The notes under the pieces were generated by a model. That model ran no database searches. It was not told the origin of the DNA and saw nothing but the letters and a program-made list of their open reading frames with translations. Of a stretch of DNA of 64,000 bases, positions 5-55,941 are shown in pieces. The translations under genes were made by a program, and so were the position numbers. Every line of letters begins with the position of its first letter. Position 1 is the stretch's first letter. Location: NCBI RefSeq assembly GCF_937616625.2, contig NC_065572.1:560501-624500 (forward strand), read 5' to 3'. Origin of the DNA: Mercurialis annua. Taxonomy: Eukaryota > Streptophyta > Magnoliopsida > Malpighiales > Euphorbiaceae.

Positions 5-3000
5 ATGGAGGGAAGCTCTTCTACAGATATGCAAAAGTTGAGTCTTTCGGTGATGGAATCTAAGGATTCGGAAATTCCACAGTAATTTCATGTTTTTCTT
101 TTTAGTTTTTAAACCAGATCAGATAATTTCAATGTTGGAACCCTAATATTTATTGTATTTGTTGAATAATTTTCTGATGATGCATACAATAAGTGATAAT
201 TGTTTTGCCAGGTAGGGAATCAGATGATAATGAAGAATTCAAAGTATATTTGGAGCTAATGGAAGATACTGATGTATGATTTTCTTTTCTTACTATTTGT
301 TTGTTTGGCTATCAGTACTAAAGCATTAATTCCTAATTTCAATATTCTGTGTTAAATACCCCCGAGGCTAATTATTTGAAAATAAGCTGATAGTCATAGA
401 ATAATAACCAAGATGATATAATAGCATTATCTAAACTTTAAATTGAAGTCCAAACTCTTCTGTTGCATAATTAGACAGTGGAATATGCTTGTGGACTTGA
501 AACGAGATTGTATAACTCCTGTTTGCGGAAGACTAATCTCTATCCTGGTCTCGTCTAATGAGGATTTCTCAAGAAAATCTCATAGTTTCTTTCTTTTGCT
601 GTGTACTGTAGGGTAAAGCTGATAGTGATACTATGGCATATATGCAAAGAGAAGGTTGTTTGCATCATAGTGAACATATTTTTCAAGCTGAAGCATTTCT
701 TAACATGGCTTCAACTGCTGGGTAATGTTTCACGCGCGTCGAACATACTATTATATGTTTTAAAGTCTTGTGAACAAGATTATAAATTTTGCTTATTGCC
801 TTAAGTTTCTTAACCGATGCAGGACTGAACAACAACAAGAATTTTTGGCCTGGTCGCTAAATCTTTTACGTGAGCAGTGGACGCAGCTAGACTGGCAAAA
901 TAATTACTTATCTGAACCCCTAGGTATAGTTCGTCTGTGTTCAGAGACATCGTTTATGTGGTCAATTTTCCACACCGTGAAGTTATTTGAGAAGGCACTT
1001 AAAATAAGTGTTACCAGAAAAGAAAATACAACTTTACGAAAATGTTCAACGAGTAGTCGCTCACATCCAATGGCTTCACATCTGTCCTGGATTCTCCCTC
1101 CTCTTTTAAAAGTATAGTTTGCATAAGAAATAAATTCTTTATTTTTTTCATTTCATATTATTTTTCTTGAAGCCATAACTACTGAAAATATGAGCTGATG
1201 ATTTGCAGTTGCTTCGCGTCATACATTCTCTTTGGTCACCTACCATATTTAAAGCATTACCTGAAAAATTAAAAGCTGCCATGTCTATGAGCGATGTTGA
1301 GCTACATGCTCTTCTTGGCGAAGGAAATCCCAAATTGTCGAAGGGATTTTTAACATTCGCTGATGGATCTCAAACTGACACGCACAAGGAAGGGTGTGCA
1401 GAAATTAGTAGATCAGATATACAGAATTGGTTAATAGATATTAGAGACAGTGGGTAAGTACCGAGTGCTTTCGATATAGTTTTACTCTTTCATTAATATT
1501 GTTGTCGAAAATTTATGTGTTTACTTTCATCCTCGTTTCTCTTCTTTTCCTTTTTCTCCCATGTCTTGCATGATTTTTATTAGGTTGTCTGTTTTGTTTC
1601 CCAACTTGTAGTTTTATAATTGTTTGCTCACATAGAATAACTGGCTACCATTTGAGATTTATGTATTTACATCTAGTTATCAATGAAAAAAATGGTCAAT
1701 GGAAGGAAAAGCATGAAGTTTATTTATTGTCCTAATTAGATTTGCCTATTGAAATTAACTTTTGATTTGTTGTTCATGAATCCAGGTACATTGTCTTGGG
1801 CCTATCGATGAGCATGAGAGATCCTTTTTTTAAATGCTTGGATATCGATTCTGATATGGTAACAGTAGCGCTGGTGGAGAATATACGGTCGATGCAGTTC
1901 AGGCATTTAAAGCAGCTTATTCATTTCGTTTTAATTTACTTGGTCAAATCTTGTCCTTCAGAGATGTGGGAAGTCTGGCTAGAAAAGCTTTTGGATCCTT
2001 TTTTTATTCATGTGCAAAATGTTCTTTGTTTTTCTCGGTCTACTAATTTGCATGAAGGTAATGCAAAGGTTCCGGATGTCGGAAGCATGCCTTCTGGATT
2101 AGATGTGAAAGCGTACGTAATGGCAGAGAAATTGCTTCGAGATATTACCCATGAGACATGCTCACTTCTTTCTGCTATGGCATCACCAGAAGTCAATGTT
2201 GGAGTTCCTTCTTTGGAACCATTGGGGCTTGTGAACCATATTGATACATCTTCTTCTCTCAAGGATTTGAATTATTTTGCGATAACCTCTATGGTTGGGT
2301 ATGTCTATAAGAATAAACTTTTATGTCTAGTTAGGGAGGTGATTGTTGCTTCTTAAACTTCTATTTTATTATCCAATTATTGCTGCTAATGTGTATTTTT
2401 TTAATTATATGCAGTTTCCTTTTAAAGCACAAAGGTCTCTCGCGTCCAACATTACAGATTTGTTTAGAAGTTTTTTGTTGGGCGGATAGCGAATCAGTGA
2501 CATTGATTTCTTCATTTTGTGCTGCTGTTGTTCGCCTCGCTATTTTAACCAACGATGTTGAAGTCCGAGGATTTGCTTCGAAAGATCTATTCAATGCCAT
2601 TATAGAAGCTTTGAAGCTTGAAACAAATGCAGTTATCAGTGCTGATTTGGTTGGTCTTTGTCGAAAAATATATTTTTATCTTCGTGATAGAGATCCATCA
2701 CCAAGACGGGTAAATGATTATGTTCTATACTAGTCAAACGTGTTAGATTAAAATTATTGTTGATGGAATGTTGTCCCGTTGAAATTTTTATAAATATGTT
2801 TTCTTTTATGTATACAGGTTCTACTCTCTCTCACTAGTTCAACCCACAGAGATTTGATTATGTTTGATGAAGACTTGACAAACACATCGAGTTCTGCGGA
2901 TCAAAATCAGCGTATGGGGCGCTTCCTTCTATCCGTTGATGGATACGAATTTATGGCACTTGATCCTCCTATTATGGAGGACGACTCTTGTGATGATATG

Positions 3001-3993
3001 CCAAATCTCAGCCCTTCAGTTATGACAAGGGTCATTGAAGCTAAGGCACGTTCTGAAGCTCATAAAAGGAAGATGGCAGAATTTAGAAAACAAGTGGGGG
3101 CTATGAAGAAAGCATATTATGACAATAATGGTAATCCACTATTAATTAAATTTCATGTAGCTGTTTTCCATTTTTAGGTAAGATCATATAATTTGAATCC
3201 TTAAACCATAGAAATTATTTATTCGTTGAATTATTTTCTCATGATGCATGTGTTTATACATTAGATAACTTATTAAAGTTTTGCCAGCTAATCCAATTCT
3301 GGAGTCTGATGAAGAACCTGATGAGTGGTTTGAGTGGGATGGTAAACATGAAATTACTGATGTAGAATTAAAAAAATATATGGAACAACTTGAAGCTAGT
3401 GAGGTACGCTTCCTCAAATTTCAAATTATTTTATATGTTTTCCTCTAAATACTAAAGCTTTAAGTCCTAGAAGCATTAGTCTTTTATTTGTATTTAACTA
3501 TTAATTATATTTTCTGATAATTTATCAATTTTTGTTGTTTTTGTATAAATACATAGGGTTTTGAGATGGGCGACTTCTCAAACGTTCGTGCATTTGGTAT
3601 GATTCAACCAATGAAGTTGAATGAGCGCTCCATTGCAGAACTTGATAAATATATTAAAATGGCACTTGAAGAATTCAATCAGAAAGAGGTTTGCCTGTGT
3701 TTTCTTTAATCTTTTCGGTGTTGTTTTTACCGGTTCTTATATGTCCTAATGCATTTACTGTTCTTTTTTAGAACTCAAATTTTGAATGTGTGGAGATTGA
3801 GAAGGCAAGTGTATTAGGGGAACTACGCACAGAGTATTATATCACTTTTAAAGCAAAAGATGAGAATAGAGTTTCAACCTTTACATTTCAAGCTTTAATA
3901 TTTTATGATTATGTTTGTGAAAAAAGACACTATGAAACATCAGTGGGCATTTGCAGATTGAAGCCAGATACTGCTCCTGGGCATGGTAAATAG
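5..3993 (+). CDS. HASTY C-terminal / cystatin-like fusion gene, copy 1
   Basis: Exons joined by hand: 5-81, 216-273, 612-721, 823-1111, 1209-1453, 1786-2298, 2415-2709, 2818-3130, 3288-3403, 3557-3688, 3772-3993. All introns are GT-AG and phases agree, giving 2370 nt or 789 aa. Residues 46-581 match the C-terminal part of HASTY, the plant Exportin-5 homologue acting in miRNA biogenesis and movement (e.g. SDTMAYM, EWLEKLL-like and NAVISADLVGLCRKIY stretches). The N-terminal Ran-binding/importin-beta part of HASTY is absent. Residues 582-789 resemble the plant cystatin-like family: acidic leader, FGMIQPM, ALEEFNQKE, then NSNFECVEIEKA, EYYITFKAKD, FQAL and CRLKP. Residues 1-45 are a second, diverged copy of that family's N-terminus. 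Exon 2 needs the acceptor at 214-215, because the one 4 nt upstream gives TAG. The promoter lies outside the window, and exons upstream cannot be excluded. Without transcripts it could also be a well-preserved pseudogene. Confidence 0.65.
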
Positions 3994-4766: not shown

Positions 4767-4775
4767 TAAATAAAA

Positions 4776-5098
4776 GGCCAAATGTTGTAAAAAGGCCAAA
4801 TCTTTTACAAAAGTTTCACAAAAGTCCTGACCTTTCAATTTTGTCGATTTTGGCCGAAAACTGATTATTTGGTTTCACAAAAGTCCTGACCTTTCAATTA
4901 TTTTGTTTCACAAAAGTCCTGACCTTTCAATATATGTGCATGCCACGTAGGTGACACATAGGCAAAATTGAAATCAAATTGAGAGTTGGCCACAATTGAA
5001 ACCAAATAATATGTTTTTGGCCAAAATCGACAAAATTGAAAGGTCGGGACTTTTGTGAAACTTTCGTGAAAGATTTGGCCTTTTTAGGACATTTGGCC
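4776..5098. mobile_element. Mutator-type MITE with 9-bp target duplication
   Basis: The ends GGCCAAATG and CATTTGGCC are perfect inverted repeats that extend, imperfectly, about 90 bp inward (AAAGGCCAAATCTTTTAC; TTTCACAAAAGTCCTGACC; CGATTTTGGCC). The element is flanked by an exact 9-bp duplication TAAATAAAA at 4767-4775 and 5099-5107, the size typical of Mutator-like transposition. The left arm holds three direct copies of TCACAAAAGTCCTGACCTTT. There is no coding capacity, so it would depend on a transposase elsewhere. Confidence 0.75.
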
Positions 5099-5107
5099 TA
5101 AATAAAA

Positions 5108-5801: not shown

Positions 5802-6167
5802 TTAATTCTATATAAAATCATCACATTTACACGTTTTTTCATTTTAATCACGTTCTTTAAAAAGTATTAAATAAAATCATCACCTTTCTTTTTTTTTTTT
5901 CAAATCTATCACGAATGTGAAAATTTGGTGTATATTTGTTAACTCGGCAACCGGAAACAACAAGAAAAAGGTAAGACGAAGGTGGTTTTTGTGTTAATTA
6001 GGGCATTAGTCAAATTATGATATTTATTTGGAAGAAAAAAGACACCGGATTTTCTCATCGGTGTTAGATTTGCAAAAAATAAAAGGTGGTGATTTTATTT
6101 AACACTTATTAAATGACGTGATTAAAATGAAAAAATGTGTAAAGATGGTGATTTTATATGGAATTAA
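5802..6167. mobile_element. Long inverted-repeat (foldback) MITE
   Basis: The first and last 50 bases are near-perfect inverted repeats: left TTAATTCTATATAAAATCA and CATTTTAATCACG, right CGTGATTAAAATGAAAAAA and ending GGAATTAA. The element is non-coding. Its TIR interior (TTTACACGTTTTTTCATTTTAATCACG) is shared with the element at 22422-22734, so both belong to one family or superfamily. Confidence 0.6.
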
Positions 6168-7913: not shown

Positions 7914-8478
7914 TATTTTTATTTAAAATTGTTTACATATAAAAATTGAAATTAAAAATTAAATCATTAATACAAATAGAAAAATTTGATGTCATTCGTA
8001 AATTATTATTATATATTTGATTAGAGTTAGAAAACACTTTTAAGTGTATGTTTAGGATTAGGATTAGGAAAAATTTATAAATAGTTAAAAGTTAAAAAGA
8101 TATGAAAGTCTTCATCCGCTAATGCGCCTGCCTCTTTGTGTTGACTGTTGGGTGTTAAAGATTGTGTTTGACGCTTTTTAAAAGGAAACAAGCTAAAATA
8201 CAGCTGAACTCACCAAGTCAAAATTCGAATCTGGTCGCCTATGAGAAAACTTCCCACTAATTTGCTTCCTGATATCGCAGTCTTAACAAATTGTATATAT
8301 ATAATAATTGCGGTTGGGTTCGGTCAGCTCTTGCATACACTTTACCGGCCAGAGCTGTCATATTAGGGAAAAACACTAACCTCGCCGTTGTTCTATCTTT
8401 TTGAGCTGAATAGGAATTTTTATTCGGAAAACCAAAAGCAAATTAGAATAAATTATTATCAAGAATTAGATATTAGTT
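7914..8478. promoter_or_regulatory. 5' flank of fusion copy 2
   Basis: This is non-coding DNA directly upstream of copy 2 and should contain its promoter and 5' leader. The stretch 8105-8400 is less AT-rich than its surroundings. I cannot point to a convincing TATA box. The equivalent flank of copy 1 lies outside the window, so the two promoters cannot be compared. Confidence 0.3.
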
Positions 8479-8548
8479 ATGGAGGGCAGCTCTTCTAGTG
8501 ATATGCAAAAGTTGAGTCTCTAAAGCAAGTGAGGAGGCTCATAAAACA

Positions 8549-11500
8549 ATGAAGGAGGCTTTTAAAAGTCGAGCGTTGGATCTAAAGCGAAAATTCCACG
8601 GTAATTTCTTTTTAATTTTTAAATCAGATCAGATAATTTGAATGTTGGAACCCTAATATTTATTGTATTTGTTGTTGTTGTATTTGAATAATTTTTTGTT
8701 TTGCCAGGTAGGGAATCATATGAAGCAACCGATAATGAAAAATTCAAAGGATATTTGGGTCTGGTGGAAGCTAGTGATGTATGAATTTCTTCTTTTTTCC
8801 CTATTTGTTTGGTTATCAATAGTAAAGCATTAAGACCTAATTTCATCTGTATTAGTAACTTTTAGGTTGCTGATTTTTTGAAAATTAGCTGATAGAGTAG
8901 TAAATGAAGAAGAAATAATAATCATACTCTTCTGTTGCATAATTAGACAGTGGAACAAACTCAACACAAAATTATATAGGTCCTCTTTGAGGAAGACTAA
9001 TCTTCATCCTGCTCTCTTCTAATGAGCACTTCTCAAGCAAATCTCATATATTCTTTCTTTTGCTATGTACTGTAGGGTAAAGCCGATAGTGATACTATGG
9101 CTTATATACTAAAAGAAGGCTGTTTGCATCATAGTGAGCATATTTTTCTAGCTGAAGCATTTCTTGATATGGCTTCAACTGCTGGGTAATGCTTCACCGT
9201 GAACATACTATAATGTTTTAAAGTTTTGTGAACAATAATATTATATGTTTTGCTTATTCCCTCAAGTTTCTTAACTGGTGCAGGACTGAACAACAGCAAG
9301 AATTTTTTGCCTGGTCGCTAAATCTTTTACGTGAGCAGTGGACGCAGCTAGACTGGCAAAATAATTACTTATCTGAACCCTTGGGTATAGTTCGTCTATG
9401 TTCTGAGACACCGTTTATGTGGTCAATTTTTCACACCGTGAAGTTATTTGAGAAGGCATTTAAAATAATTGGAACCAGAGAAGAGAATACAACTTTACGA
9501 AAATGTTCAACGAGTAGTTTTTTGCATCCAATGGCTTCACACCTGTCCTGGATGCTCCCTCCTCTTTTAAAGGTATAATTTGCATAAGAAATAACTTCTT
9601 TCTATTTGTCATTTCGTATTATCTTTCTTGAAGCTATAACTACTTAAAATATGGGCTGATGATTTGCAGTTGCTTCGCGTCATACATTCTCTTTGGTCTC
9701 CTGCTATATATCAAGCATTACCTGAAAAATTAAAAGCTGCCATGTCTATGAGCGACGTTGAGCTACATGCTCTTTTTGGCGAAAAAAGCCCCAAATTGCC
9801 AAATGGATTTTCAATATTCGCTGATGGATCTCAGACTGACACGAGCAAGGAAGGGTATGCAGAAATAAGTACATCAGATATGCAGAATTGGTTAAAAGAT
9901 ATTAGAGACAGTGGGTAAGTAGCAAGTGCTTTCAAGATAGTTTTAACTCTTCCATAGTTCATAGAAATTGTTGTCGAATATTTATGTGTCATTGACTTCT
10001 TTCTTCCTCGTTTCTCTTCTTTTCCTTTTTCCTCCCATGTCTTGCATGAATTTAGTTAGGTTGTCTGTTTTGTTTCCTAACTTTTAGTTTTATAATTGAT
10101 TGATCATATGGTATAACTGAATACAATTTGAGATTTATGTATTTATATTTAGTTTGTCCATGGAAAAATGGTGAATGGAAGGAAAAAGATAAAGTTTATT
10201 TATTGTCCTAATTAGGTTTGCCTATTGAAATTAACTGTTGATCTGCTGTTTATGATTTCAGGTACACTGTCTTGGGCCTATCAATGAGCATGCGAGATCC
10301 TTTTTTTAAATGCTTGGATATCGATTCTGATATGGTAACAATAGCGTTGGTGGAGAATATACGGTCGATGCAGTTCAGGCATATAAAGCAGCTTATTCAT
10401 TTAGTTTTAATTTACTTGGTCGAATCTTGTCCTTCAGAGATGTGGGAAGTCTGGATCGAAAAGCTTTTGTATCCCTTTTTTATTCATGTGCAAAATGCTC
10501 TTTGTTTTTCTCGGTCTATTAGTTTGCATGAAGGTAATGCAAAGGTGCCGGATGTCGGAAGCATGCCTTCTGGATCAGATGTGAAAGCGTACGTAATGGC
10601 AGAGAAATTGCTTCGAGATGTTACCCATGGGACATGCTCACTTCTTTCTGCTATGGCATCACCAGAAGTCAATATTGGAATTCCTTTTTTGGAACCATTG
10701 GGGCTTGTGAACAGTATTGATAGATCGTCTCTGAAGGATTTGAATGATTTTGCGATAACCTCTTTGGTTGGGTATGTCTATAAGAATAAACTCTTATATC
10801 TAGTTAGGGAGGTATCTTTGCTTCTTTTACTTCTATTTTATTATCCGATTATTGCTACTAATGTGTATTTTTTTTCATTATATGCAGTTTCCTTTTAAAG
10901 CACAAAGGTCTCTCGCGTTCGATGTTACAGATTTGTTTAGAAGTTTTTTGTTGGGCGGATAGCGAATCAGTGACAAAAATTTCTACATTTTGTACTGCTG
11001 TTGTTCTTCTCGCTATTTTAACAAATGACGTTGAAGTCCGAGAGTTTGTTTCAAAAGATCTATTTAAGTCCATTTTAGAAGCGATGAAGTTTGAATCAAA
11101 TGCAGTTATCAGTGCCGATCTTGTTAGTCTATGTCGAAAAATATATTTTTATCTCCGTGATAGAGAGCCATCACTAAGACGGGTAAATAATCATTTTCGC
11201 TACTATTCAAACGTGTTAGATTAAAAAAATATTGTCGATGGGATGTTGTTCAATTGAAGATTTTCTATTGATTGTAATATATGCAGGTTCTACTTTCTCT
11301 CACTGGTTCAACCCGTAGATATTTGATTTTGTTTGAAGAAGACTTATCAAAAGCGTCAAGTTCTGAGGAACAACAACAATGTATGAAGAGATTTCTCATA
11401 TCAGTTGAAGGATATGAATTGTTGGCACTTAATCCTCCTATTATGGAGGATAACTCTTGTGATGATATACCAAATCTCAGCCCTTCAGTTATGGAAAAGG

Positions 11501-12459
11501 TGATTGAAGCTAATGCACGTTCTGAAGCTCATGAAAAGAAGATGGCAAAAATTAGAAAGCAAGTGGGGGCCATGAAGAAAGCCTATTATAACAATCCTGG
11601 TAATTTTAATTTAATTACATATAGCATTTTTCCATTTTAGACAAGATCATTTTACTTTAAAGATTAAACCCTAAAATTTATTTATTTGTTGAATTCAATT
11701 CTCATGATGCATGTGTTTATACATTGTATAACTGATAAAAGTTTCGGCAGCTAATCCAATTTTGGAGTCTGATGATGAACCTGATGAGTGGTTTGAGTCG
11801 GATGGTGAACATGAAATGACTGATGAGGAATTTAAAAGATATATGGAACAACTTGATGCTAGTGGGGTATGTATTTGTCCTCAATTTCCAATTTTTTTTA
11901 TGTTTTCCTCTAAATACTGAAGCTTCAAGTCCTAAAAGCATTAATCCTTTATTTGTATTATTAACTAAAAATTACATTTGCTGATAATTTATCACTTTTT
12001 GTTGTTTTTATATAATACATAGGGTTTTGATATGAACGACTTTTCAAATTGTCGTGCATTTGGTATGATTCAACCAATGGAATTGAATGAGGTTTCAGTT
12101 ACAGAACTTGATAAATATATTAAAATGGCACTTGAAGAATTCAATCAGAAAGAGGTATTGCCTATGTTTTCATTAATCTTTTGGGTGTTCTTTTAACGAG
12201 TTCATATTTGTCCTAATGCATTTACTGTTTTTTTTAGAACTCAAATTTTGAATGTGTGGAGATTGAGAAGGCAAATGTATTGGGAGGACTACGCACAGAG
12301 TATTATATCACTTTTAAAGCAAAAGATGAGAAGAGAGTTTCAATCTATACATTTCAAGCTTTAATATTTTATGATTATGTTTGTGAAAAAAGACACTATG
12401 AAACATCAGTTGGCATTTGTAGATTAAAGCCTATTCCACCGCCTAGGCATGGTAATTAG
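8549..12459 (+). CDS. HASTY C-terminal / cystatin-like fusion gene, copy 2
   Basis: Exons by hand: 8549-8600, 8708-8778, 9076-9185, 9284-9572, 9670-9914, 10262-10771, 10888-11182, 11287-11599, 11751-11866, 12023-12154, 12238-12459. All introns are GT-AG, giving 2355 nt or 784 aa. The layout is the same as copy 1: HASTY-like residues 42-576, then cystatin-like 577-784. Exons 3-11 match copy 1 exon for exon, and exon 6 is one codon shorter. The first exon differs. The ATG homologous to that of copy 1 (8479) runs into TAA after 14 codons, but an in-frame ATG at 8549 with the acceptor ending at 8707 keeps everything open. The 14-codon frame would then be an upstream ORF. Positions are offset from copy 1 by 8464-8466 bp, and introns also align, so the duplication is recent. 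Expression is unproven. Confidence 0.6.
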
Positions 12460-13081: not shown

Positions 13082-13216
13082 GCCACACAATCGCCCTTCT
13101 TTAGATGGTATGATGATGAATATGCTTCTCACCTCAAGCACATGTTGTATATGAAAAAATCCAATGAGGAGCTACAGAAGGGAGGGGAAATCTCAAAGAG
13201 AAGTGTTCGAGCTTAA
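13082..13216 (+). pseudogene. Possible GRF-type zinc finger protein fragment
   Basis: After an acceptor-like CAG, one frame reads about 44 codons to TAA. It contains FFRWYDDEY and LKHMLYMKKSNEEL, similar to the end of plant GRF zinc-finger small proteins, where an FF-W-D segment is followed by a charged helix. The preceding zinc-binding exon is not found, so this is at best a terminal exon or relic. The call is weak, resting on about ten residues. Confidence 0.25.
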
Positions 13217-13489: not shown

Positions 13490-13995
13490 TATGAAGAGGA
13501 TGAGCCTTACTGGATCTCGATGGCTAACAACTACATGTCGAGCAGCTTCATCAAAATCTGTCATGGCAGTTCAACTTCAACTTCAGCAAATGTTATCTAT
13601 AGCAGGCTTTGGAAGGCTAAAGTTCCACCGGAAGTTTAATTCTTTGTTTGGGTCCTTCACAAGGATCGTATAGTTTTGAAAGAGTTATTATTTTATCGCC
13701 GGATTATTAATGAGGATGCTCTGTTATGTCCGAATTGTTTGATAGAGATTGAAACAGGAATCCACATAATATTTCACTATTCTTTTGCTTGGGATTTTTG
13801 GTATCACTTTCTTTGTCGATTGAAAGTTTCCACTGGGTCTTTTCCGTTTGATTTATAGAGCTTCTATTTTCAGTGGATGAAATTGGCTAGTAGGAAATAG
13901 AGGGACTTTTAGGAAACAATTTGATTTTTTAATGTCTGGGAGGTTTGGAAAGCTCGCAATGAAGTTTTTGCCGGGTTGCTAGAACCTTTGATCCG
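13490..13995 (+). pseudogene. LINE reverse-transcriptase zinc-binding fragment
   Basis: Read with several stops, the frame gives SRLWKAKVPPEV, FFVWVLHKDRI, RRIINEDALLCPNC, GIHIIFHYSFAWDFWYHF and NVWEVWKARNEVF. This is the zf-RVT domain that follows the reverse transcriptase in plant L1-type LINEs and their relics. Stops and a frame change make it dead. The fragment ends about where the exon-4 remnant of HASTY copy 3 begins, so a LINE insertion or a rearrangement formed the left border of copy 3. Confidence 0.55.
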
Positions 13996-13999
13996 GCCG

Positions 14000-16560
14000 T
14001 GGATGAATCTAGACTGTTATTTATCTGAACCATTCGTCTAATTTTTAAGACACCATTTATGTGGTCAACTTTCCACATAGTGAAGTTATTTGAGAAGATA
14101 CTCAAAATAACTGGAACCAGAAAAGAAAAAACGACATCACAAGAATGCTCAACAAATAGTCTCTTGCATCCAATAACTTCACATATGTCCTGGATGCTCC
14201 CTCGTCTTTTAAAAGTATCTTTCACTTAAGAAATAACAATTTCTTTTAGTCATTTCATGTCTTCTTTCTTAAAGCCATAACTGCTGAAATTTGGTTATTC
14301 ATTTGCAGTTGCTTCGTGTCATACATTCTCTTTGGTCTCCTTCCATATATCAAGCATTACCTGATAAAATAAAAGCTTCCATGGCAACAAGTCATGTTGA
14401 GCAATATTCTTTTCTCGGTGAAAGAAATCCCCAATCGCCAGAGGGTTCTTTAACATTCACCGATGGATCTCAGATTGATACCGGCAAGGCAGGGTATATA
14501 GAACCGATGTATCATCTATACACAATTGGTTACATGGTATTAGAGACAGTGGGTAAGTATATTGGTTTGGGAGTTTTTAGTTGGACAAATAGCAAATTAG
14601 TGAAAGAAATTTATTCTTTTTGTGCTATTGTTGTTCGTCTCGCTATATTAACCAATGATGGTGAAGTCCGAGGATTTGTTGCGAAAAGATCTATTCTATG
14701 CCATTATTGAATAGGGCGAGCTGCAGCGGCCGCCCCTTCCTTTGGCGAAAAGCTTGGTACCGGTTACTTCATCGACATAGGGTTATGATATGGACGACCG
14801 CCTCAATATAAGGTTTTTATATAGACGATTTCCCAAATGTTCATCCATTTGGTACGATTAGACAAATGAAATTGAATAAGCGTGATGTCACAGAACCGGA
14901 AAAAAATTAAAAAAATTTGTCGGGTTTCGGTGGTGGGTTTGTAAATTAGTTGAGTACGGTGATGGGTCAGAATTTATTTATTTGTTAATTTATTTAATAA
15001 AATTTTAAAAAATAACTAATTTTTAGGATTTATTTGAATATTTTTGAAATTGAAGGACTTGTTTGTATTTTTCAAAATAAAAAAAATATGATATAACCCT
15101 TCTATTTAATTGTTTTTAGTGTTTTCATCCTTAAGTTAATTAATTTGTCAAATTTTTTTAAAATTATGATAGAGATGAAACCTAAAAATCCGAAATTGGG
15201 TAAAATTGAAAAATTTCATACGCTAGGATATAAATGAAAAAAAGTTGCAACGTGGAGTATTTTTAAGTGATTAGGCCCTTATCTTAATTACGTTTGACTT
15301 ATGCAAATTAACTGTTCATTTGTTCATCACAATTTTCGGTACACTATCTTGGGCCTATCAATGACCATTGGAGATACATTCCTTAAATGCTTGAATGTTG
15401 TTTCTGTTAAGGTAGCATTGATGGAGAATGCGAGGCCGATGCAGTTCATGCATTTAAGCAGGCTTGTTAGTTTAGTTTTTATGCGCTTAGTCAAATCGTG
15501 CCCTCCAGAGTTGTGGGAAATCTGGTTGGAAGAGCTTTTGGATCCTTTATTTATCCATGTGCAAAATGTTTTTTTGCGTGAAGGTAAAATAAAGGTGCCA
15601 CATGTCCTAAGCACGCCTTCTGGGTTAGATGCGAAAGTGGGTTGACACCATTTCTAATATGGCATCACTTTTTTCTGCTATTGCATCATTTCTTTATGAT
15701 ATGGGATTGTCGGGAGTAAATACTGGACTTCCTTCGTTGGAACCATTGGAGCTTGTGTACTATATCGATCCATATTCTATAAAGGATATGGATGCTTTTG
15801 CGATAAATTTTATGGTTGGGTAATCATATTTTTGCTAATTATGTGTAAATTTTCATCATGTACAGTTTCATTTTAAAGTGCAAAGGTCTTTCCCTTCCAG
15901 CATTACATATTTGTTTATGAGTTTTTAATTGGACAGATAGTAAATTAGTGAAAGAAATTATTCTTTTTGTGCTATTGTTGTTCGTCTCGCTATTTTAACC
16001 AATGATGTTGAAGTCCGAGGATTTGTTGCGAAAAGATCTATTCTATGCCATTATAGAATAGGGCGAGCTGTGGCGGCCGCCCTCTTCCTTTGGCCAAAAG
16101 CTTGATACCGGTTACTTCATCGACATAGGGTTGTGATATGGACGACCGCCTCATATAGGGTTTTTATATAGATGATTTCTCAAATGTTCGTTCATTTAGT
16201 ACGATAAGATCAATAAAATTGAATAAGCGCGATGTCACAGAACTGGGGTGAATATGCTAAAATGACAATTAATGTATTTAACCAAAAAAATGTTTGTCTT
16301 TTTCTTTTGTCAGTTCTTTATTTTCTGATGAAATTATTGTTCTTATTTTAGAATTCAAATTTTAAATTTTTAGAGCTTGAAGACAAACAAATTAGAAAAT
16401 TTATACTTCCACTATTACATCACATTCAAGGTCAAAAATGACAGTAGTATAAAAATATTTCTAGTATTGGATTTGAATGAGTTCATAATTAGAAATAATC
16501 AATTCAAACATGGACAACATTTTGTAGGTTGAAGCCTATTACTACTCCCAGCCAAGATAA
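14000..16560 (+). pseudogene. Scrambled HASTY/cystatin pseudogene, copy 3
   Basis: Remnants of the fusion-gene exons occur in the order 4 (about 14006-14214), 5 (14309-14552), 7 (about 14570-14710), 10 (about 14786-14912), then an AT-rich insert, 6 (about 15335-15822), 7 (about 15866-16060), 10 (about 16140-16300) and 11 (about 16352-16560). The pieces carry frameshifts and stops; for example the end of exon 5 is out of frame and exon 6 breaks after GLDAKV. Exon 7 and the following segment with AGCGGCCGCCC occur twice, so the locus suffered an internal duplication as well as decay. It is more diverged from copies 1 and 2 than they are from each other. No intact product is possible. Confidence 0.7.
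14913..15300. other. AT-rich insert within pseudogene copy 3
   Basis: This stretch separates the first exon-10 remnant from the exon-6 remnant. Its start (GTCGGGTTTCGGTGGTGG) recalls the core and arms of the foldback element at 6637-7913, so it may be a decayed relative. There are no clear inverted ends. Confidence 0.3.
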
Positions 16561-17069
16561 CTAGCTTCTCACGTATCAAATCATATGTTTAATATTTTGA
16601 ATTTCTTTTCTAAAGGGTAAGATATAGTTAATACACTCGATTTTTAGTTGTTTTTGCAATTATCGTTTTGCGATCATTTTCACACTTGTTTTAATTTTTC
16701 ATGCAAAAAAAATTTACCTCTCCTTATTATGGTACTTATTCTTAAACAAGTCTGAAATGCCGCTGCTGCAAAAACTGTAAATAGAATACTTTCAATGTGG
16801 GCTCTATTGCAATTATTCCTTATTTTTTTCCCATTATTTAGACAATATTTTAGATTTACTTTTGAAGCAATTTACGAAAAAAATATAATAAGGTCTTCTT
16901 ATGATTACTGAGCCTCGAAACTTATCTGATGATAAATGATTTTTTTAATTTATAGTCAATTCAACTTACTGTTTTATTTTTTAATAAAATTTTTAGTCAT
17001 GGAGATGAGTCTATTGATTCAAACAAAGTATTCTTACCTAAAGAAAAGAGTGACAATTAGTGGCGAAGG
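16561..17069. other. Spacer between pseudogene copies 3 and 4
   Basis: AT-rich DNA without a recognisable gene or repeat ends. The sequences just after the exon-11 remnants of copies 3 and 4 (from about 16560 and 17545) resemble each other (TTTAATATTTTGAATT; CGACTTTTAGTTGTTTT-like), so the duplicated unit extended beyond the exons. Confidence 0.4.
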
Positions 17070-17550
17070 TAAGGTGAGGCGAAAAGCTTGAGACAGGTTA
17101 TAGTGTCTTAATACGTACGACCGCCCAACATAGAATTTTGATATGGACGACTTTCCAAATGTTCGTTCATTTGGTATGATTAAACTAATGAAATTGAATG
17201 AGCGTTATGTCACGAAACTTGATGAATATGCTAAAATAGCAATCGAAGTATTTAACCAGAAAGATGTTTGTCTTTTGTGTGTGTTTTTTTGCAGTTGCTT
17301 ATTTTTTTGAATGAAATTATTGTTCTTTTTTAGAATTCAAATTTTAAATATTTGATACTTGCAAAGGCAAACAAATCAAAAAATTTATATTTTCACTATT
17401 ACATCACATTCAAGGTTAAAGATGAGAGTAATATAAGAACATTTCAAGTTTGATTTTTGATGAGTTTATAATTGGAAAGAATCAATTCAAAAACATCAGT
17501 GATATTTTATAGGTTGAAGCTTATTGCTACTCCCAACCAAGATAAGTAGT
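17070..17550 (+). pseudogene. Cystatin-like 3' remnant, copy 4
   Basis: Contains an exon-10 remnant (about 17140-17272, with the DFPNVRSFGMI, MKLNERYVTKLDEYAKIAI and FNQKD wording) and an exon-11 remnant (about 17334-17550) in the same order as in the intact copies. It is preceded by the GGCGAAAAGCTTG segment also seen twice in copy 3. No HASTY part is left. Decayed splice sites and missing codons make a product unlikely. Confidence 0.6.
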
Positions 17551-17760
17551 TTGCCATGTATTAAATTATATGTTTAATATTTTGAATTGATTTTCTAAAA
17601 AGGTAAATATGTAGTCAATAGACTCGACTTTTAGTTGTTTTCACAATTATATTTTCGCACTCATTTTCACATTTATTCTATTTTTTTATGCATGACAAAT
17701 TTATCTCTTCTTATTGTAATACTCATCTATACTATATATGAAAGTACGGATGTGAGGGAT

Positions 17761-20776: not shown

Positions 20777-20933
<157 letters not shown>

Positions 20934-22914: not shown

Positions 22915-23468
22915 AACCTGCGCGATTTGCTATCAATTAATAGGTATATTATCTTCTCTAAAATGTTATTTACTTTTACCAACATAAATATCAAACTATT
23001 TTATAGAAATTAAAACATTATTTAAACTAAATTTATTGATACTAAGCCAATTTAAAATCATCCTAAAATAAAACTGGTTGATTATCAGTCCATTTAGGAT
23101 TTGATAACTAATACACATTTAAATTTTGACAAATATAATGGTAATCAACATATTGTCTGTAATTCTTTTTTATATGAAGCCTTTGATAAAAATAACACAA
23201 TTCACATGTGTATTTGTTGTTTATATTTAAATGGTTTCATCCTAATTATTAGGACAAATATGGGAGTATTGCTCTTCTAAATTATCTTTTGATCAATTAC
23301 TACAGTAATTAAAAACGTAATTTTAATTTTTAAGAGGTTTATTTTGATTAAAACTACTTAAATCAATTAAAGTAAAATAAGTAGTTGAAAAAGATTGGAG
23401 ACTATCAGAGCATTCTATTTGATGAGAATAAATGAGAGGGTTCCGTTGGTCCTCTCAATTATATAATA
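22915..23468 (-). mobile_element. Degenerate Helitron c, left end eroded
   Basis: AACCTGCGCGATTTGCTATC resembles the hairpin region of the neighbouring Helitrons but lacks CTAGTCG. The right side is the conserved 5' end (GAGAGGGTTCCGTTGGTCC, TCTCAATTATATAATA), directly joined to the CTAG of the next element. Confidence 0.4.
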
Positions 23469-24747
23469 CTAGTCGTAGGCTCACGCATTTGCGCGAAATC
23501 AATTTCATATTCTATATAAATAGTATCATTTTTATTTAAAAAATTAATAGAATGCCAAAATAATTATAATAAATAGTATGGAAATTAATAATATTAAATA
23601 AAATAAAAATACATTCTAATAAATTTTGTAATAAATTTTTCTAAAGTATATGAATATCTATAATATATATTTTTTTCCTTTTATATTCTTATAATTTTTT
23701 TGTATTATAGTTTTATACATGATGCTACTTCTCATAATAAATATGGGCTGGATACCATAATAATCAATAATTTACAATATTTATAAAATTTTCTTATGCA
23801 GTTTGATTTTTTTACGATTGATAATAAAAAGATTATTGTTCATTTTCTATTAGAAAACATGTGTTTAATTATTACGTTGGCAAAAGTTGCATATTTATTT
23901 TCCTTCTCATCATAATGCTTTATAGTGACGAATTCTAATAGTACTATTTTTTTTTGATAATAATAGTACTATTTTTCCTACGAATAAATAGAGTATATAT
24001 TTTAATATTAATATATTGAGTTTTTTTATATTATATATAATTTTATAATGAAATTTTAAAAAGTTATAGTTATTTTTCGAATGACTTTCAAGAATGATAT
24101 TGAGTTTTTCATAATTTGAAAATAAAGCACCCTGAATCTATCAATATAATAAATAATAAATAATAAATTGATGTGATTAGAATGAATATTATAGAAATTA
24201 GATGAAATTAATTTTTAAAAAATATGAGTGGAATAAAATCAATTTTTACCTTAAAGTATCTTATCTTTAAGTTACTATCTGAAGTAATTTATTAATTTAT
24301 AACTGGGGTGCAACACTTTAAATTAGATACAATTATGAGTCTCGTCATAAAAGAAAAATTATCTAATAGATCATTAATTAGCTCTTAAGAGAAATAAAAA
24401 AACGCGTGACGATTTAGCACAATATCTGGAGGTATGATCCTCTACCTACCAATTTTAAAGTAATTATTCTTAGTCCTAATCTTAATTGTGTTGAACTAAT
24501 TAATGAAGGTTTTTAATAGTTATACACTCGTACATTTACTAATCTAATGGTAAGGGAAATTAACTAACATATGCATACTTTCTAGCAAGGGACTTAGATT
24601 TGAGTTAGTCTATAACTATACCATATATTAGTGGGTACGTGTTCCATTCATCATTGCAAGGAGATTAGATATGTGTATATAGCACACTCATAATGAACAA
24701 AACAATACTAACTGTTCACAGTATATGCAAGTTATCTCTATTATATA

Positions 24748-25007
24748 CTCCCTCCGTCCCACTTTAGAAGTCCCATTTGACTTTACACACAGATTAAGAA
24801 AACATTCATTATTCTTGTCTATTTATGTTTTTTCATGTTTTGCCCCTATTAATGATAGTGAAATTTTCCATAAAACTCTTTTAAGATAACTAAAATAAGG
24901 GTAAAATGGGGTATTCAATGGAAAAGTATTCTAAAAATAGTAATGAGACTTTTTAAATGGGACATCCCAAAATAGAATATGGGACTTCTTAAACGGGACG
25001 GAGGGAG
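24748..25007. mobile_element. Stowaway-type (Tc1/mariner) MITE
   Basis: Perfect terminal CTCCCTCCGTCCC and GGGACGGAGGGAG inverted ends flanked by TA on both sides, about 260 bp and non-coding. This is the hallmark of plant Stowaway elements. It is inserted into Helitron d. Confidence 0.85.
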
Positions 25008-25250
25008 TATAAGATTTGCTGTAAAAAAAATATTATACCTTCTTGGAATATTAATCACACCAGTAGTTAGAATAAAATTGCTGAATAGAATTGCTGAATA
25101 GAATTATTCATGTAAATTAAAAGTACATCGGTAGAGTTTATATAGATTGAAATTTGACGAATTGTATTTAACTTGAAACTTATCACTTTCTCAACAACTC
25201 AACTATTGTCAACTTATCTATATATATTATAATACTAATTTAAATTAAAT

Positions 25251-25518
25251 TCATGATAACAATTTACCTAAAATAATTAAATTAGAATAAGTAGTTTAAA
25301 AAAATTGGAGACTACCAGAATGCTCTATTTTGTGAGAATCAATGAGAGCGCTCCGTTGGTCCTCTCAATTATATAAGTATATATTCATGATAACAATTTA
25401 CCTAAAATAATTAAATTAGAATAAGTAGTTTAAAAAAATTGGAGACTACCAGAATGCTCTATTTTGTGAGAATCAATGAGAGCGCTCCGTTGGTCCTCTC
25501 AATTATATAAGTATATAG
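25251..25518. repeat. 134-bp tandem duplication of a Helitron 5' end
   Basis: Two adjacent copies (25251-25384 and 25385-25518) begin TCATGATAACAATTTACC and run through the conserved ATGCTCTATTTTGTGAGAA and CTCAATTATATAAGTATA. I see no differences between them by eye. Confidence 0.85.
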
Positions 25519-26476
25519 ATATAGATATATAGATTAGTCGTAATCCCGCGCATTTGCGCTGCTCAATTTATATACAATTTAAATTAAAATTATTTTTTTC
25601 TAAAAATAAATTAATATTTTCTAAAACTAAAAATTTTAATGTGTGAACTTGTAAGAAAAATAAAAATATAATTTAATAATTTAAATGATGAATTGTCTCT
25701 ACATTTTATATTTTTAACTATTTTTTTATCAAAATTTTATCTTTATTTCTTCAATAATTTTCTTCTGATAATTTCATCAAAAACCACATTTATTTTTCAC
25801 TTTTTACATTTAATATGAGTCTAAGTAAAAAAAATACACAAATTCGTTAGTAAGAAAATAATTAATTGTAACACAGACTTGATAGGACTCTAATTGAAAA
25901 GTTTGATTTCAATACTAAAAACTAAACCTATAAATACAATGATTCTAATTAAATGTATTGTGACAGGCTTATAATTAATCTGCTTATAAAACTCTTTGTT
26001 TATCATATTAGGACCCAAAAAAACACAGATATGTTATTTATTGAAATATAAAAATTAAATAAAAATACAAATCTAAAGTCTTTTAAAAATATAAAATACG
26101 CTGCAAGTTGATTAAGGTCCCTTGATATTGGTCGAAGTATAGATACTAAACAACTGAAGACATAATCATGGTACAAATAGCTAAATGATAAAAACAATTG
26201 ATTTACAAAATATAAATTATGCAATAGATTTCATGAGTCCATCACTCCTTCTAACTCAGAAAATACAAATCTGCAGTATGAAAAACAATTAATAACAACG
26301 TTGATCACTTCCTTAAAAAAACAACATTAATGATCATCTAATAATGTATACAATAATTATAAAAAAAGAAAATAAATAAAATATAATAATTCAACAAATT
26401 ATTGAAGGTATTATTAAAGCATCAATAGATCCTTAGAAAATTAAACTTACATTTGCTGCCTGCGTATAAAATTGGG

Positions 26477-26806
26477 ACGGCTTAAAATCCAAAGAGGAGA
26501 GTAAATAGATGATATTGATATAGGTTATGTTGATTATGAGTTTGATATAAATTAGAAGTCATACTTCGATGATATATATAGTGTATGTGCATAAGGAGTT
26601 TGGTATAGATTGAAAGTCATACAAAAATATTAGTTAAATTAACGGCTTAAAATCCAAAGAGGAGAGTAAATAGATGATATTGATATAGGTTATGTTGATT
26701 ATGAGTTTGATATAAATTAGAAGTCATACTTCGATGATATATATAGTGTATGTGCATAAGGAGTTTGGTATAGATTGAAAGTCATACAAAAATATTAGTT
26801 AAATTA
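26477..26806. repeat. 165-bp tandem duplication inside Helitron e
   Basis: Two head-to-tail copies (26477-26641, 26642-26806) start ACGGCTTAAAATCCAAAGAG and end TACAAAAATATTAGTTAAAT. They appear identical, so the duplication is recent or a collapse/expansion artefact. Confidence 0.85.
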
Positions 26807-26856
26807 ATTAAATTAAAATACGTATTTTAAAAATAATGGGAACTAATGATATTGCT

Positions 26857-27088
26857 TTATTTGGTGAGAATGAACGAGAGAGCTTCTTTTGGTGAGATTG
26901 AATGAGAGGGCTCCTTTTGGTGAGATTGAATGAGAGGGTTCCGTTGGTCCTTTCAATTATATAATATATAGATATAGATTATTTGGTGAGAATGAATGAG
27001 AGAGCTTCTTTTGGTGAGATTGAATGAGAGGGCTCCTTTTGGTGAGATTGAATGAGAGGGTTCCGTTGGTCCTTTCAATTATATAATA
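26857..27088. repeat. 122-bp tandem duplication of Helitron 5' end
   Basis: The block TTATTTGGTGAGAATGAAYG to CTTTCAATTATATAAT occurs at 26857-26978 and again, truncated, at 26979-27088. Inside each copy, GGTGAGATTGAATGAGAGGG is itself repeated. Confidence 0.8.
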
Positions 27089-28796
27089 CTAGTCGAATAC
27101 CCGCGCAATTGCACGGGATGATCTTAATAATTATTTTAAATTTATATTATTTTTATTTTGTTTAAATAAAAATTAAAAATATAGTAAAATTATAGATAAA
27201 TTTGATACAAAAATAAAATAAAAAATATTTCATATAATCTATAAAAATAATAAAAATACATTATTAAATCTCTTAAATTTAGTGTATTTTATTTTACTTT
27301 GACTTATACTAACTCTAATAATTGATTTTTTAAAAAATATTATATATCTATTTTACAGTTTGTTTTAATTTTCACTTCACTAAAAAAATATTTGTTGGAC
27401 GTTTGGATTTATCTTTATGAAATAGCTTCTTGTACTGCTCAATATTTTTTTTATCTTGTTTTTTATTAAGGGTGGATCATATCCTATTATATTCTCTATA
27501 ATTGAAAATAAAATTAGTCTCTCATTATAAAAAGCAAACTTTTGAATTTGAATTGTAACATAGAGTTCGAATTTATATGTTAAAGAAAATGTAAATAAAA
27601 TTCTCACTATTTTTATTTGATGAATTTCTCACTACTATTTTAAATATGTTTGTCTTTTCTACGATTAATAACAATTTTTTTTTCATTATAAAAAATTTGG
27701 TTTTGAATTTTGATTGTATATATTCGAATTATGACACATTAAAAAATATAATTTTTTGACCATTTTCTAATTATAAGTAATTTGTTAAACTTATTCTAAA
27801 AATATTATAGGATTTTCCATAGTTTTAATGTAATTTGCAACTTACCTATTAAAAGGACAATTCAAAATATTATCTCATTGTTAATTGTGTCTCAAAATTT
27901 ATATAATATATTAAAACAAATAAAAATTATGATAATAATAAAATTGCATGTTTAAATTTTTGGGTTTGCGAGATTTAAATAAGCAAATTCAAGTATAACT
28001 AAATTCATAATTACCAGACAACTAAAAATAGTCACAAACAACAACAAATCAACTAATAGCATAATAGTTGTCATTCAATCACATAAATAATGATAAAAAT
28101 TCTTAAACTTTAAAAAATTAAATAAAAAGATTATAGACATAAATACCAAAAGCTGGTTGTTAATCCCATTGTCCTATATTGCAGCCTGCAGAAGCACAAA
28201 AATGAAGAAGACAATACCCTCTATAGATTTGAGAAATAAAATAGACATAGCATGTATACAAATATCAATACATTATTAATAAAATACAGAATAAACGATC
28301 TACGTGCTTCATAATAGCAGGTCGGACTCTTAAAATAAACTATTCCTCTATGCTGCGAAAAATAAATCACCAAATTCCCCATGTTAATCAATCTATAATA
28401 CAATATATATATACACTAAAATTGAATTACATATTTCATATATGATTGTGGCAGTGACGTATAAGCCACATTCCAAGCTATTTATTTGCTTAGGTGAAAT
28501 AGTAATCATCAAATTGAGAAGAATTAAATAGAAATCAAAAGAGAGTTTGTAGTGTAATAGGAGCAGATGTTTGGGATAAATCTAAATACTACTATAACGT
28601 AGTAATCTTCAAAAAAGAGAGAGAACAAATGTAAATATTAAAATCAAATATAAATATTAAAGGTAAATAATTTATCAAATCGTTAAAAATATTAAAAGTA
28701 AAATAAGTGTTTTTGAAAAGGTGGAAACTATAAAAATGCTCTATTTGGTGAGAATCAATGTGAGGGCTACGTTGGTCCTCTCAATTATATAATATA
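27089..28796 (-). mobile_element. Non-autonomous Helitron f
   Basis: The 3' end CTAGTCGAATA is followed by the hairpin CCCGCGCAATTGCACGGG. At the right lies the conserved 5' block (GAGGGCTACGTTGGTCCTCT, CAATTATATAATATA), cut directly by the CTAG of the next element. It contains no protein-coding frame I can support. Confidence 0.6.
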
Positions 28797-30101
28797 CTAG
28801 TCGTAACCCGCGCATTTGCGCGGAATCAATTAATATTTAACTTATTTGATGATTTTATCAATACAAATAATGTAAAAGAATCATAATTTACAATTCAATA
28901 AAAAAAATCTATTCTAATAATTCTAGTAATTTAAATAATGAATATATGTAATCTGTTTTTTGCATTTATATTATTTTTATATATTCTTTTTTGATGTTGA
29001 CCTCTTTTTGTTCTATTTTTTCAGTAAATTCGCTTTTAACTCTTCTTAAGTTTGTATATAATTAATATCCATATTATTCAATTAATGAGTTTAATTATAA
29101 GCATAAAATAATTAATTAAGTATTAAATTTTACAGTAAAAATAAATGATGTTAAAAGCTATGTACACCATGAAAATGAACCTTTCAAAAAAATTCGAAAG
29201 CTCCTATATATAAATATTTATTTTTATTTTGTTCAATTCAGATAATCACATAAAATATGAAGTGAAACATAATCTAATTACAATTCTTTTTCCATCTATC
29301 ATAATTATCCACCAGCAGCATAGAATCATAAAAAAATAGCATGAATCTGGAAGAAGTAGCAATTGTACGTAGTAATAGCAATATTAACAATAATAAACAA
29401 ATTATATTTATACACATTTTGATTATATACGTTGTTTCTAGTCTCAACAAATATGAAAATATTTAAATGTTTGTCTGTATAATTCTCTATTTTCCAACGA
29501 ATCATTCATATTACATCTCGTACATTGTTTACAGTTTGTATATTAACTCATGTAAATTCAAAAAACATTCTTCCAACTAAATTATTATCTTTCCCAGAAA
29601 TCGCATGCACATAGCACAACCAACACAAATGTTAAACTAAAACACCAACAACATTGTTTTCAAAAGCTTTTGAAGCAGAGAAAAAAGATAAATTTTTACT
29701 TTAAGTTTGATAGACTATACGAATATCATATTATGTATTTAATATTGAGACATACAATAATATAGGATACGTTTTTACTTTTAATTGATAGACTCTAATT
29801 AATTATTGGCAATCTTAAAGTAAAGTAATTGCACATAAATTGTCTCTTTTAGAAGATAATGTGAAAAATAGAGAATAGGGTTATCATTTGAAGTCTTGGA
29901 TGTGTTATTTATAACGATGAGTGATTTAAAAATTACATTTTATTTGAATAATTAAAACCTAATTGTTTATATAGATTAAAATACTTATTAAAATAAGTAA
30001 AATTTAAAAAAGTAGTTTAATAGAAGTGGAAACTCATTAGAAAATTCTATTTGGTGAAAATCAATGAGATGGCTCCGTTCTTCCTCTCAATTATGTAAGT
30101 A
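28797..30101 (-). mobile_element. Non-autonomous Helitron g
   Basis: The 3' end is CTAGTCGTAACCCGCGCAT with hairpin GCGCATTTGCGCGG. The right 5' block (GATGGCTCCGTTCTTCCTCT, CAATTATGTAAGTA) meets CCAG of the next element. From 29703 on it is nearly identical to the following 691-bp monomer. Confidence 0.6.
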
Positions 30102-31084
30102 CCAGTCGTACAACCGCGAGGTAGCGCAGAATCATTATAATTTTTTATTTTTATTTAAAATTAGTAACTTATTTGAGTGATTTTTGTATAAATCAATTTT
30201 AATAATTGATCGACAATAATAAGTAGTATGTACCGACTTATATTACATGACAACCGTTAAAAATAATGTTTAAAAATTGAAGCTTTTGTATTAGGAAAAA
30301 ATTAATCGAGTACTTTTAAAAATTGAGAATTTTATATACAAATTAAAACTATTATTGATAATGATTTTTAAAATAAAAAGAAAAAAATTAAATAAGTTTG
30401 ATAGACTATACGAATATCATATTATGTATTTAATATTGAGATATACAATAATATAGGATACGTTTTTACTTTTAATTGATAGACTCTAATTAATTATTGG
30501 CAATCTTAAAGTAAAGTAATTGCACATAAATTGTCTCTTTTAGAAGATAATGTGAAAAATAGAGAATAGGGTTATCATTTGAAGTCTTGGATGTGTTATT
30601 TATAACGATGAGTGATTTAAAAATTACATTTTATTTGAATAATTAAAACCTAATTGTTTATATAGATTAAAATACTTATTAAAATAAGTAAAATTTAAAA
30701 AAGTAGTTTAATAGAAGTGGAAACTCATTAGAAAATTCTATTTGGTGAAAATCAATGAGATGGCTCCGTTCTTCCTCTCAATTATGTAAGTACCAGTCGT
30801 ACAACCGCGAGGTAGCGCAGAATCATTATAATTTTTTATTTTTATTTAAAATTAGTAACTTATTTGAGTGATTTTTGTATAAATCAATTTTAATAATTGA
30901 TCGACAATAATAAGTAGTATGTACCGACTTATATTACATGACAACCGTTAAAAATAATGTTTAAAAATTGAAGCTTTTGTATTAGGAAAAAATTAATCGA
31001 GTACTTTTAAAAATTGAGAATTTTATATACAAATTAAAACTATTATTGATAATGATTTTTAAAATAAAAAGAAAAAAATTAAAT
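29703..31084. repeat. 691-bp tandem repeat spanning a Helitron junction
   Basis: Copies 29703-30393 and 30394-31084 differ by one base that I noticed (GAGACATAC against GAGATATAC). The period equals the distance between the two CCAGTCGTACAACCGCGAGG ends (30102 and 30793). The repeat is therefore one complete Helitron monomer with partial copies on both sides. Confidence 0.9.
30102..30792 (-). mobile_element. Complete 691-bp Helitron monomer
   Basis: Runs from A|CCAGTCGTACAACCGCGAGG (CTGG terminus on the element strand, one of the allowed CTRR forms) to the 5' block CTCAATTATGTAAGTA before the next CCAG. It is the middle unit of a head-to-tail concatemer. Confidence 0.6.
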
Positions 31085-31994
31085 ATTAGTTAATGAAAAT
31101 AGAAAAATCATGAAAATAAAATTTTACAAAATTAAATAAATTGAAAAATAATTTTCATAATAAAATATTGAATTACGAATGAAATTTACTATATAATGAA
31201 AGTTGATTTTATGATTACTTATTTTTATAATTGTATTTTTTAAACAGAAGATATTGTATTAAGGAAATAGGCCAATCTTACAACTTATACAGCACAATTA
31301 TTTAATAACAATAGCATCAACCTATATGAGCTTTTACAAAGTTGAGCTAAAGCATGAGCCACCTACGAGAAATCCGTCATTCTTGAAACTGACGTTGAAG
31401 ATGCAATATATCCATACTAATTCCCCAAACTTTTGAATCATCATTAGGTATTGAAAGTTGATTTTAGGATGATTGAATTTTTTTTTGTCAAAAGATGATG
31501 GAATTTATATCAGGAGTTTATAATGGCTTTATAGAAACAATGGAAATCAAAGTATAATTTCTACTGAAAACTAATATTAGGAAGACTTGATTTTGATTAG
31601 ACAAAGCCTTTATAAGCCTTATGGAAATTAAAGTATTACCGATAGAAAAAATCAAATCACAAAATATTTGGATTCTTTGGAGAAGAAGAATATGCTAAAG
31701 AAATGAATTTTAGCTGTAATTTGATGGGGATTGTTTCGGCGTACATAATGAATAATATACTTTTTATTTATAAAATCAATGGAAATTAAATTTGAAGTTG
31801 AGTTTAAGATGATTTGTGTTTAGTAGGAAGTTGATTTAATTTAGGAGTGATACTATATCAATTAAAAATAATTTAAAATGTAATTTAAAAATTGAATAAA
31901 AATAAGTGTTTTAGAAAAGATGGGAACTAATGAGAATGCTCTATTTGGTGAGAATCAATGAGAGAGCTCTGTTGGTCCTCTCAATTATATAATA
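30793..31994 (-). mobile_element. Non-autonomous Helitron h
   Basis: The left part repeats the monomer (to 31084), followed by unique AT-rich DNA and a different 5' block (AGAGAGCTCTGTTGGTCCTC, CAATTATATAATA) that joins CTAG of the next element. No coding frame. Confidence 0.55.
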
Positions 31995-34900: not shown

Positions 34901-35087
34901 ATCTATTAAATTAATAATTAATGATAACTATCTAATAATAAAAGTTAAGTAGTTTAAAAAAATTGGAGACTATGAGAATGCTCTATTTGGTGAGAATCAA
35001 TGAGAGCGCTCTATTTTGTAGGAATCAATGAGAAGGCTCGGTTGGTCCTCTCAATTATATAAGTATATAGATAGATATAGATATAGA
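31995..35087 (-). mobile_element. Non-autonomous Helitron i, last of the row
   Basis: The 3' end is CTAGTCGTACGCCCGCGCAT with hairpin GCGCATTTGCGCGG. The right end is TCTCAATTATATAAGTATAT followed by ATAGATAGATATAGATATAGA|T at 35087. A second, truncated 5' block lies inside at about 33600-33695, so the element is composite. The middle resembles Helitron d. Small frames within it do not look like genes. Confidence 0.6.
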
Positions 35088-55873: not shown

Positions 55874-55875
55874 AT

Positions 55876-55887
55876 TGGTATCGGAGC
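55876..55887 (+). other. Copia primer binding site
   Basis: TGGTATCGGAGC, two bases after the LTR, resembles the usual initiator-Met tRNA site TGGTATCAGAGC with one difference. Confidence 0.75.
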
Positions 55888-55941
55888 TAAGGTTCTATCC
55901 TTGGCATATCGGTTAGCTATTAAATAAAAATTGGAGCAGAA

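Follow-up and report, generated by a model that had tools for sequence, protein, structure and literature searches.

HASTY (HST) is reported to be the plant orthologue of exportin-5 and to have roles in the production and movement of microRNAs (miRNAs). HASTY 1 and XPO5 combine a C-terminal HEAT-repeat half, recognized by Pfam PF19273, with an N-terminal Ran-binding half recognized by PF08389 (Xpo1). Also relevant here are the phytocystatins, which are cysteine-protease inhibitors with the PF00031 domain, and the plant cystatin-related proteins of TIGR01638 ('Arabidopsis thaliana cystatin-related protein'). We describe genes of Mercurialis annua in which half of a HASTY is fused to a cystatin-like protein, in a stretch of 64,000 nucleotides referred to as the window (assembly GCF_937616625.2, contig NC_065572.1, positions 560,501 to 624,500, forward strand). 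Judged partly through an identical protein, and from the genome note PMC11157195, the window most likely belongs to linkage group 3 (LG3) of the female assembly and is likely autosomal.

The fusions are a real, lineage-specific chimeric gene family. A preliminary description of the DNA knew of no such fusion; it is in fact already annotated, under the automatic name 'protein HASTY 1-like', and no paper describing it was found among the matches listed for M. annua with HASTY or microRNA, or for a chimeric HASTY, exportin or cystatin. Three coding-intact copies are annotated: P0001 (749 aa; copy 1), P0003 (copy 2) and P0002 (770 aa), which lies outside the window, where no stretch encodes it and its best tblastn matches are copies 1 and 2. 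Of 250 candidates in a protein search with the cystatin part, in which fusion-length proteins were allowed, three reach E<=1; all have the 'HASTY 1-like' name, come from M. annua and lie on one contig. The full-length HASTY of M. annua (P0008, 1206 aa) is also annotated, apparently on the same contig.

When the eleven hand-joined exons of copy 1 are spliced, a single frame stays open for 789 codons up to its stop codon, all junctions being GT/AG, and the HASTY–cystatin composition proposed in the preliminary description is confirmed by both domain profiles and by the three annotated copies. The 789-codon product matches Exportin-5 (PF19273, E 2e-153) at residues 51–577 and then Cystatin (PF00031, E 1.1e-5, above the cut-off). 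P0001 is matched letter for letter by window exons starting at ATG 259, and P0003 is matched exactly from copy 2, starting at ATG 9097 and using an extra splice, 12451|13082. The features of the copies are:

5..81, + strand: copy 1 exon 1, derived from the 5' exon of a cystatin-related gene and degraded
212..273, + strand: copy 1 exon 2, cystatin-related, with the annotated start codon at 259 and homology to 3360–3469
612..2709, + strand: copy 1 exons 3–7, HASTY C-terminal half (Pfam PF19273; tblastn with P0008)
2818..3130, + strand: copy 1 exon 8, which codes for HASTY as far as about 2973 and continues, with no intron between, into ATG 2974 and the first cystatin-related exon
3288..3993, + strand: copy 1 exons 9–11, cystatin-related domain (PF00031; TIGR01638 just under cut-off)
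259–273, 612–721, 823–1111, 1209–1453 and 1786–2298, + strand: exons of P0001 (exact protein match)
2415–2709, 2818–3130, 3288–3403, 3557–3688 and 3772–3993, + strand: remaining exons of P0001 (exact protein match)
8479..12459, + strand: copy 2, intact, annotated as P0003, main ATG 8549 or 9097, with the frame open from 8549
13082..13104, + strand: alternative final exon of copy 2, used by the annotated isoform X2, whose protein ends in HTIALL
13949..17558, + strand: copy 3, decayed and internally rearranged, with scattered fragments, several containing stops (tblastn)

Copies 1 and 2 are well supported as maintained protein-coding genes, with purifying selection on exons 3–11. The comparison covers these exons, as the frames differ in exons 1 and 2, which were set aside together with intron 1 (identical bases 61/74 and 50/62 in the exons and 90/95 in the intron). 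Exons 3–11 are 90.4% identical and introns 2–10 are 84.1% identical. The ratio of nonsynonymous to synonymous divergence (dN/dS) between the copies, a check suggested in the preliminary description, is not near 1 but 0.44 (bootstrap 95% interval 0.33–0.58), being 0.43 in the HASTY part and 0.47 in the cystatin part, with dS (0.187) near the intron divergence (0.178); neutrality is rejected by an approximate binomial test (P 2.7e-7). In 1,419 aligned intron bases there are 24 insertion or deletion events, of which 21 have lengths not divisible by three, and the exons have one, of three bases, in 2,232 aligned bases, with no frameshifts against the approximately 33 expected from the introns. When 214 substitutions were simulated neutrally 400 times, every run produced stops, 10.3 on average; no stops are observed in exons 3–11. 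Since two more intact paralogues are annotated, one of them copy 2, and no frameshifts are seen where about 33 are expected, chance is excluded for exons 3–11. The selection tests concern copies 1 and 2, P0002 being known as a protein only. Copy 3 decayed; copies 1 and 2 kept their open frames and remained under constraint.

The HASTY part corresponds to HST residues ~640–1167 of 1206, the C-terminal HEAT-repeat half. PF19273 matches P0001–P0003 with E values of 1.8e-153 to 1.2e-142, but over profile positions of about 310–820 of 823 only. The Ran-binding N-terminus is missing, as the preliminary description had said: PF08389 is found in none of the three fusions and at residues 107–266 of P0008, and P0008 residues before 640 have no tblastn match in the window. 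Matches to P0008 stop at residue 1167, at base 2961 in copy 1 and 11430 in copy 2. Compared with HASTY 1 and XPO5, which they resemble in the C-terminal HEAT half and its predicted fold, the fusions thus lack HST residues 1–639, including the Xpo1 domain, as well as the last ~39 residues; they also have a long stem branch and many changes at residues invariant in HSTs. The exportin-5-like C-terminal HEAT fold is kept in the predicted structure, and identity to M. annua HST is 66–67% in this half. Across 191 HST-invariant columns, defined from 20 HSTs chosen out of 120 listed HASTY relatives, 124/573 residue cells (22%) are changed in the fusions, compared with 1–6% in leave-one-out controls with four HSTs (2/204 in three, one of them the HST of M. 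annua itself, and 12/214 in the most divergent); 28 of the 191 columns are changed in all three copies.

The cystatin-like tail is recognized by PF00031 in all three copies (26–29 bits; cut-off 22.2), as in phytocystatins. P0003 and P0002 score above the curated cut-off of TIGR01638 (34.2 and 32.3, against 32.05) and P0001 scores below it (28.2); the fusions further differ from that family in that the domain sits behind half an exportin. They differ from phytocystatins in the QxVxG loop, the protease-binding loop of cystatins, which PMC3490968 names. The loop is intact in neither of two alignments, in which QVVAG is paired with LGGLR (4n6t) and with SVLGG (4lzi) and its Q and central V are lost in both, and because of this protease inhibition by the cystatin part appears unlikely from the sequence. 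The fold itself is weakly modelled, the prediction of its helix and strands being of low confidence. Two structure comparisons, made with the whole fused protein, are both filled by the HEAT half and include no cystatin structure among the 50 matches shown in either. No stand-alone cystatin relative or parent was found at E<=0.01 among 84 candidates, in a search that needs shared five-residue words and does not itself demonstrate absence.

The order of the parts indicates how the chimera was assembled. The 5' exons and introns of copy 1 align with the stretch beginning around ATG 2974, and hence the HASTY piece is flanked by two copies of a four-exon cystatin-related gene, a partial one on its 5' side, comprising exons 1–2 and part of intron 2, and a complete one on its 3' side. 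The homology runs from 2972 onward: 3–55 matches 2972–3024 weakly (69.8% identity, E 0.018), 84–185 matches 3149–3249 (75%) and 230–335 matches 3360–3469 (71%), and copy 2 bases 8477–8510 match copy 1 bases 2972–3005 at 79% (E 5e-4). The cystatin-related gene seems originally to have started at ATG 2974, and transcripts starting there are possible. The HASTY-derived DNA, the 3' half of the gene, contains introns. It lies between the partial and complete cystatin-related copies, so that the chimera opens with cystatin-type leader exons, continues in frame across the HASTY exons and enters the cystatin-related coding at its own apparent start codon. The HASTY DNA may have landed between two cystatin-related genes by insertion, or it may have arrived together with a duplication. 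In this the fusions resemble chimeric genes known to arise by exon shuffling or DNA duplication, in that their parts join in frame, once at an intron and once at a start codon, and the unit later multiplied; they differ in that the domain pair is seen in no other species in this sample.

The 5' end of copy 1 is the doubtful part of the preliminary exon structure. The first 40 residues of the 789-codon frame require an acceptor at 215|216. The acceptor matching 211|212 fits the frames of copy 2 and P0002, and in copy 1 it creates a CAG-TAG stop; spliced as 81|212, ATG 5 opens only a 26-codon upstream open reading frame (ORF). The annotated P0001 starts downstream, at 259, so it is silent on the choice of acceptor, and a transcript with the 215|216 join would have offered a longer frame than the one annotated. 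Two of the three fusion proteins carry the name 'isoform X2', and the 3' exon of the copy 2 isoform is not predictable from homology; given usual NCBI practice, these two facts suggest that the annotation was guided by transcripts.

In a tree, the HASTY half of the fusions falls in one group with the HASTYs of Mercurialis and Ricinus, at support 96/97 and on a stem branch of 0.39. Placement before or after the Mercurialis/Ricinus split failed: joining the fusions to Mercurialis HST costs 0.41 log units (approximately unbiased test, p-AU 0.42) and to Ricinus 1.03 (0.28). In pairwise comparisons the fusions are slightly nearer Ricinus (0.68–0.70) than Mercurialis HST (0.66–0.67), which may reflect rate differences. 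A search of relatives for the domain pair, also suggested in the preliminary description, finds both domains in three of the 120 HASTY relatives listed (405 matches in all), and all three are from M. annua. The fusion is thus confined to Mercurialis within this sample, which has Ricinus among the nearest relatives. Exon 11 of copy 1 (3772–3993) encodes 99% identity to P0002, compared with 71–91% for exons 3–10, and this near identity is likely to reflect gene conversion or recombination among copies. Copy turnover together with exon 11 suggests sequence exchange, and we envisage a small, fast-evolving family shaped by birth, death and exchange of its members.

We favor, with a probability of about 0.6, a reading in which the HEAT repeats of the fusion have been repurposed as a scaffold and its cystatin-like tail is probably not an inhibitor. 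The protein would be neither an exportin nor a cysteine-protease inhibitor, nor a strict mimic of HASTY, but a mainly cytosolic protein-binding scaffold in which the HEAT arch and the tail might each hold a partner. Several observations weigh against it. Transcription is implied only by annotated isoforms, which are protein models. With the 81|212 splice, upstream ORFs precede ATG 259 in copy 1 and may limit its translation. Constraint is uneven, with dN/dS of 0.74 in exon 6 and 0.88 in exon 9 (few changes each). The predicted structure has a mean predicted local distance difference test score (pLDDT) of 66, and below 70 in the cystatin part, and one loop alignment of the two does pair the last G of QxVxG with a G. 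Finally, none of the three copies departs from the HSTs at 132 of the 191 HST-invariant columns, so binding of the HST kind may in part persist.

The preliminary description proposed that the fusion might compete for HASTY partners in miRNA biogenesis. We consider it unlikely that the fusion is such a decoy, rivalling full-length HASTY for its partners and thereby adjusting how miRNAs are produced or moved. Most of the HST C-terminal half is retained with a predicted exportin-5-like fold, but the columns changed in every copy and the overall loss of invariant residues weaken the idea, as does the missing nuclear-targeting half, and nothing was found showing that the C-terminal half binds DCL1 or MED37. 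In PMC8327949 and PMC9893293, the scaffold role of HST for DCL1 and MED37 is located at nuclear MIRNA loci, and PMC8327949 recounts work by Cambiagno et al. (2021) in which an HST that lacks 107 N-terminal residues stays in the cytosol and fails in nuclear miRNA biogenesis. Because the fusion lacks ~640 N-terminal residues, nuclear competition with HASTY is, by analogy, unlikely. According to PMC8327949, HST probably does not need to shuttle in order to act in miRNA movement. A form of it confined to the cytosol could therefore be relevant, and a cytosolic role, including in movement, is possible. A specific version is a long shot: the fusions would be separate cytosolic regulators that bind the partners or cargo of HASTY, independently of Ran and of entry into the nucleus, and determine which miRNAs move between cells, with the tail as a new targeting arm. 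Somewhat less improbable than such competition, though still not likely, is that the cystatin-related domain does the work and the HASTY half is a passenger that needs only to fold: exon 11 is well conserved (dN/dS 0.33) and nearly identical between copy 1 and P0002 (99%), and ATG 2974 could yield the cystatin part alone, but the 99% identity may reflect gene conversion, and the HASTY part is equally constrained, which a passenger would not need. An annotated but non-functional family of transcribed pseudogenes would fit the decay of copy 3, the first exon of copy 1 lying out of its relatives' frame and the eroded HST-invariant columns; it is nonetheless quite improbable, and for exons 3–11 it is rejected on the open frames, with frameshifts (~33 expected) and stops (~10 expected) absent from both copies, and on dN/dS. 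Gene prediction can chain neighboring genes, but an assembly or annotation artefact of this kind is barely credible here and is rejected: HASTY and cystatin coding meet in frame inside one exon, with no intron between them, in the DNA of both copies 1 and 2, and P0002, as a protein, has the identical junction.

Other features of the window include two foldback elements resembling miniature inverted-repeat transposable elements between copies 1 and 2, at 4775–5099 (103-nt arms, 92% complementary) and 5802–6167 (94-nt arms, 87% complementary). An uninterrupted AT dinucleotide run of about 146 bases (20782–20927) explains perfect palindromes there. A ~134-nt repeat occupies 23336–35065 in scattered and tandem copies, with 62–99% identity to a reference copy, and the region includes a perfect 165-nt tandem pair (26477–26806) and a perfect 300-nt pair (29702/30393). 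The 272-aa ORF at 35471–36289 has a C-terminal SAM domain (PF00536, E 1.2e-15), and a leftwards 297-aa ORF at 45878–46771 (− strand) has no Pfam match at E<=1. The Copia-type long terminal repeat (LTR) retrotransposon at 55354–58812 is a recent insertion, with two 520-bp LTRs that are 100% identical, TG...CA ends, CGAAC on both flanks as a target duplication, and an internal ORF (56099–58081) with gag, pre-integrase and RVT_2 matches.

Half of a HASTY is here coupled to a domain unrelated to it, in three annotated copies with intact coding, and purifying selection is measurable in two of these. The fusions therefore offer a natural experiment on the abilities of the C-terminal HEAT half when the Ran-binding half is absent, in a dioecious plant for which a public assembly and RNA-seq are available.
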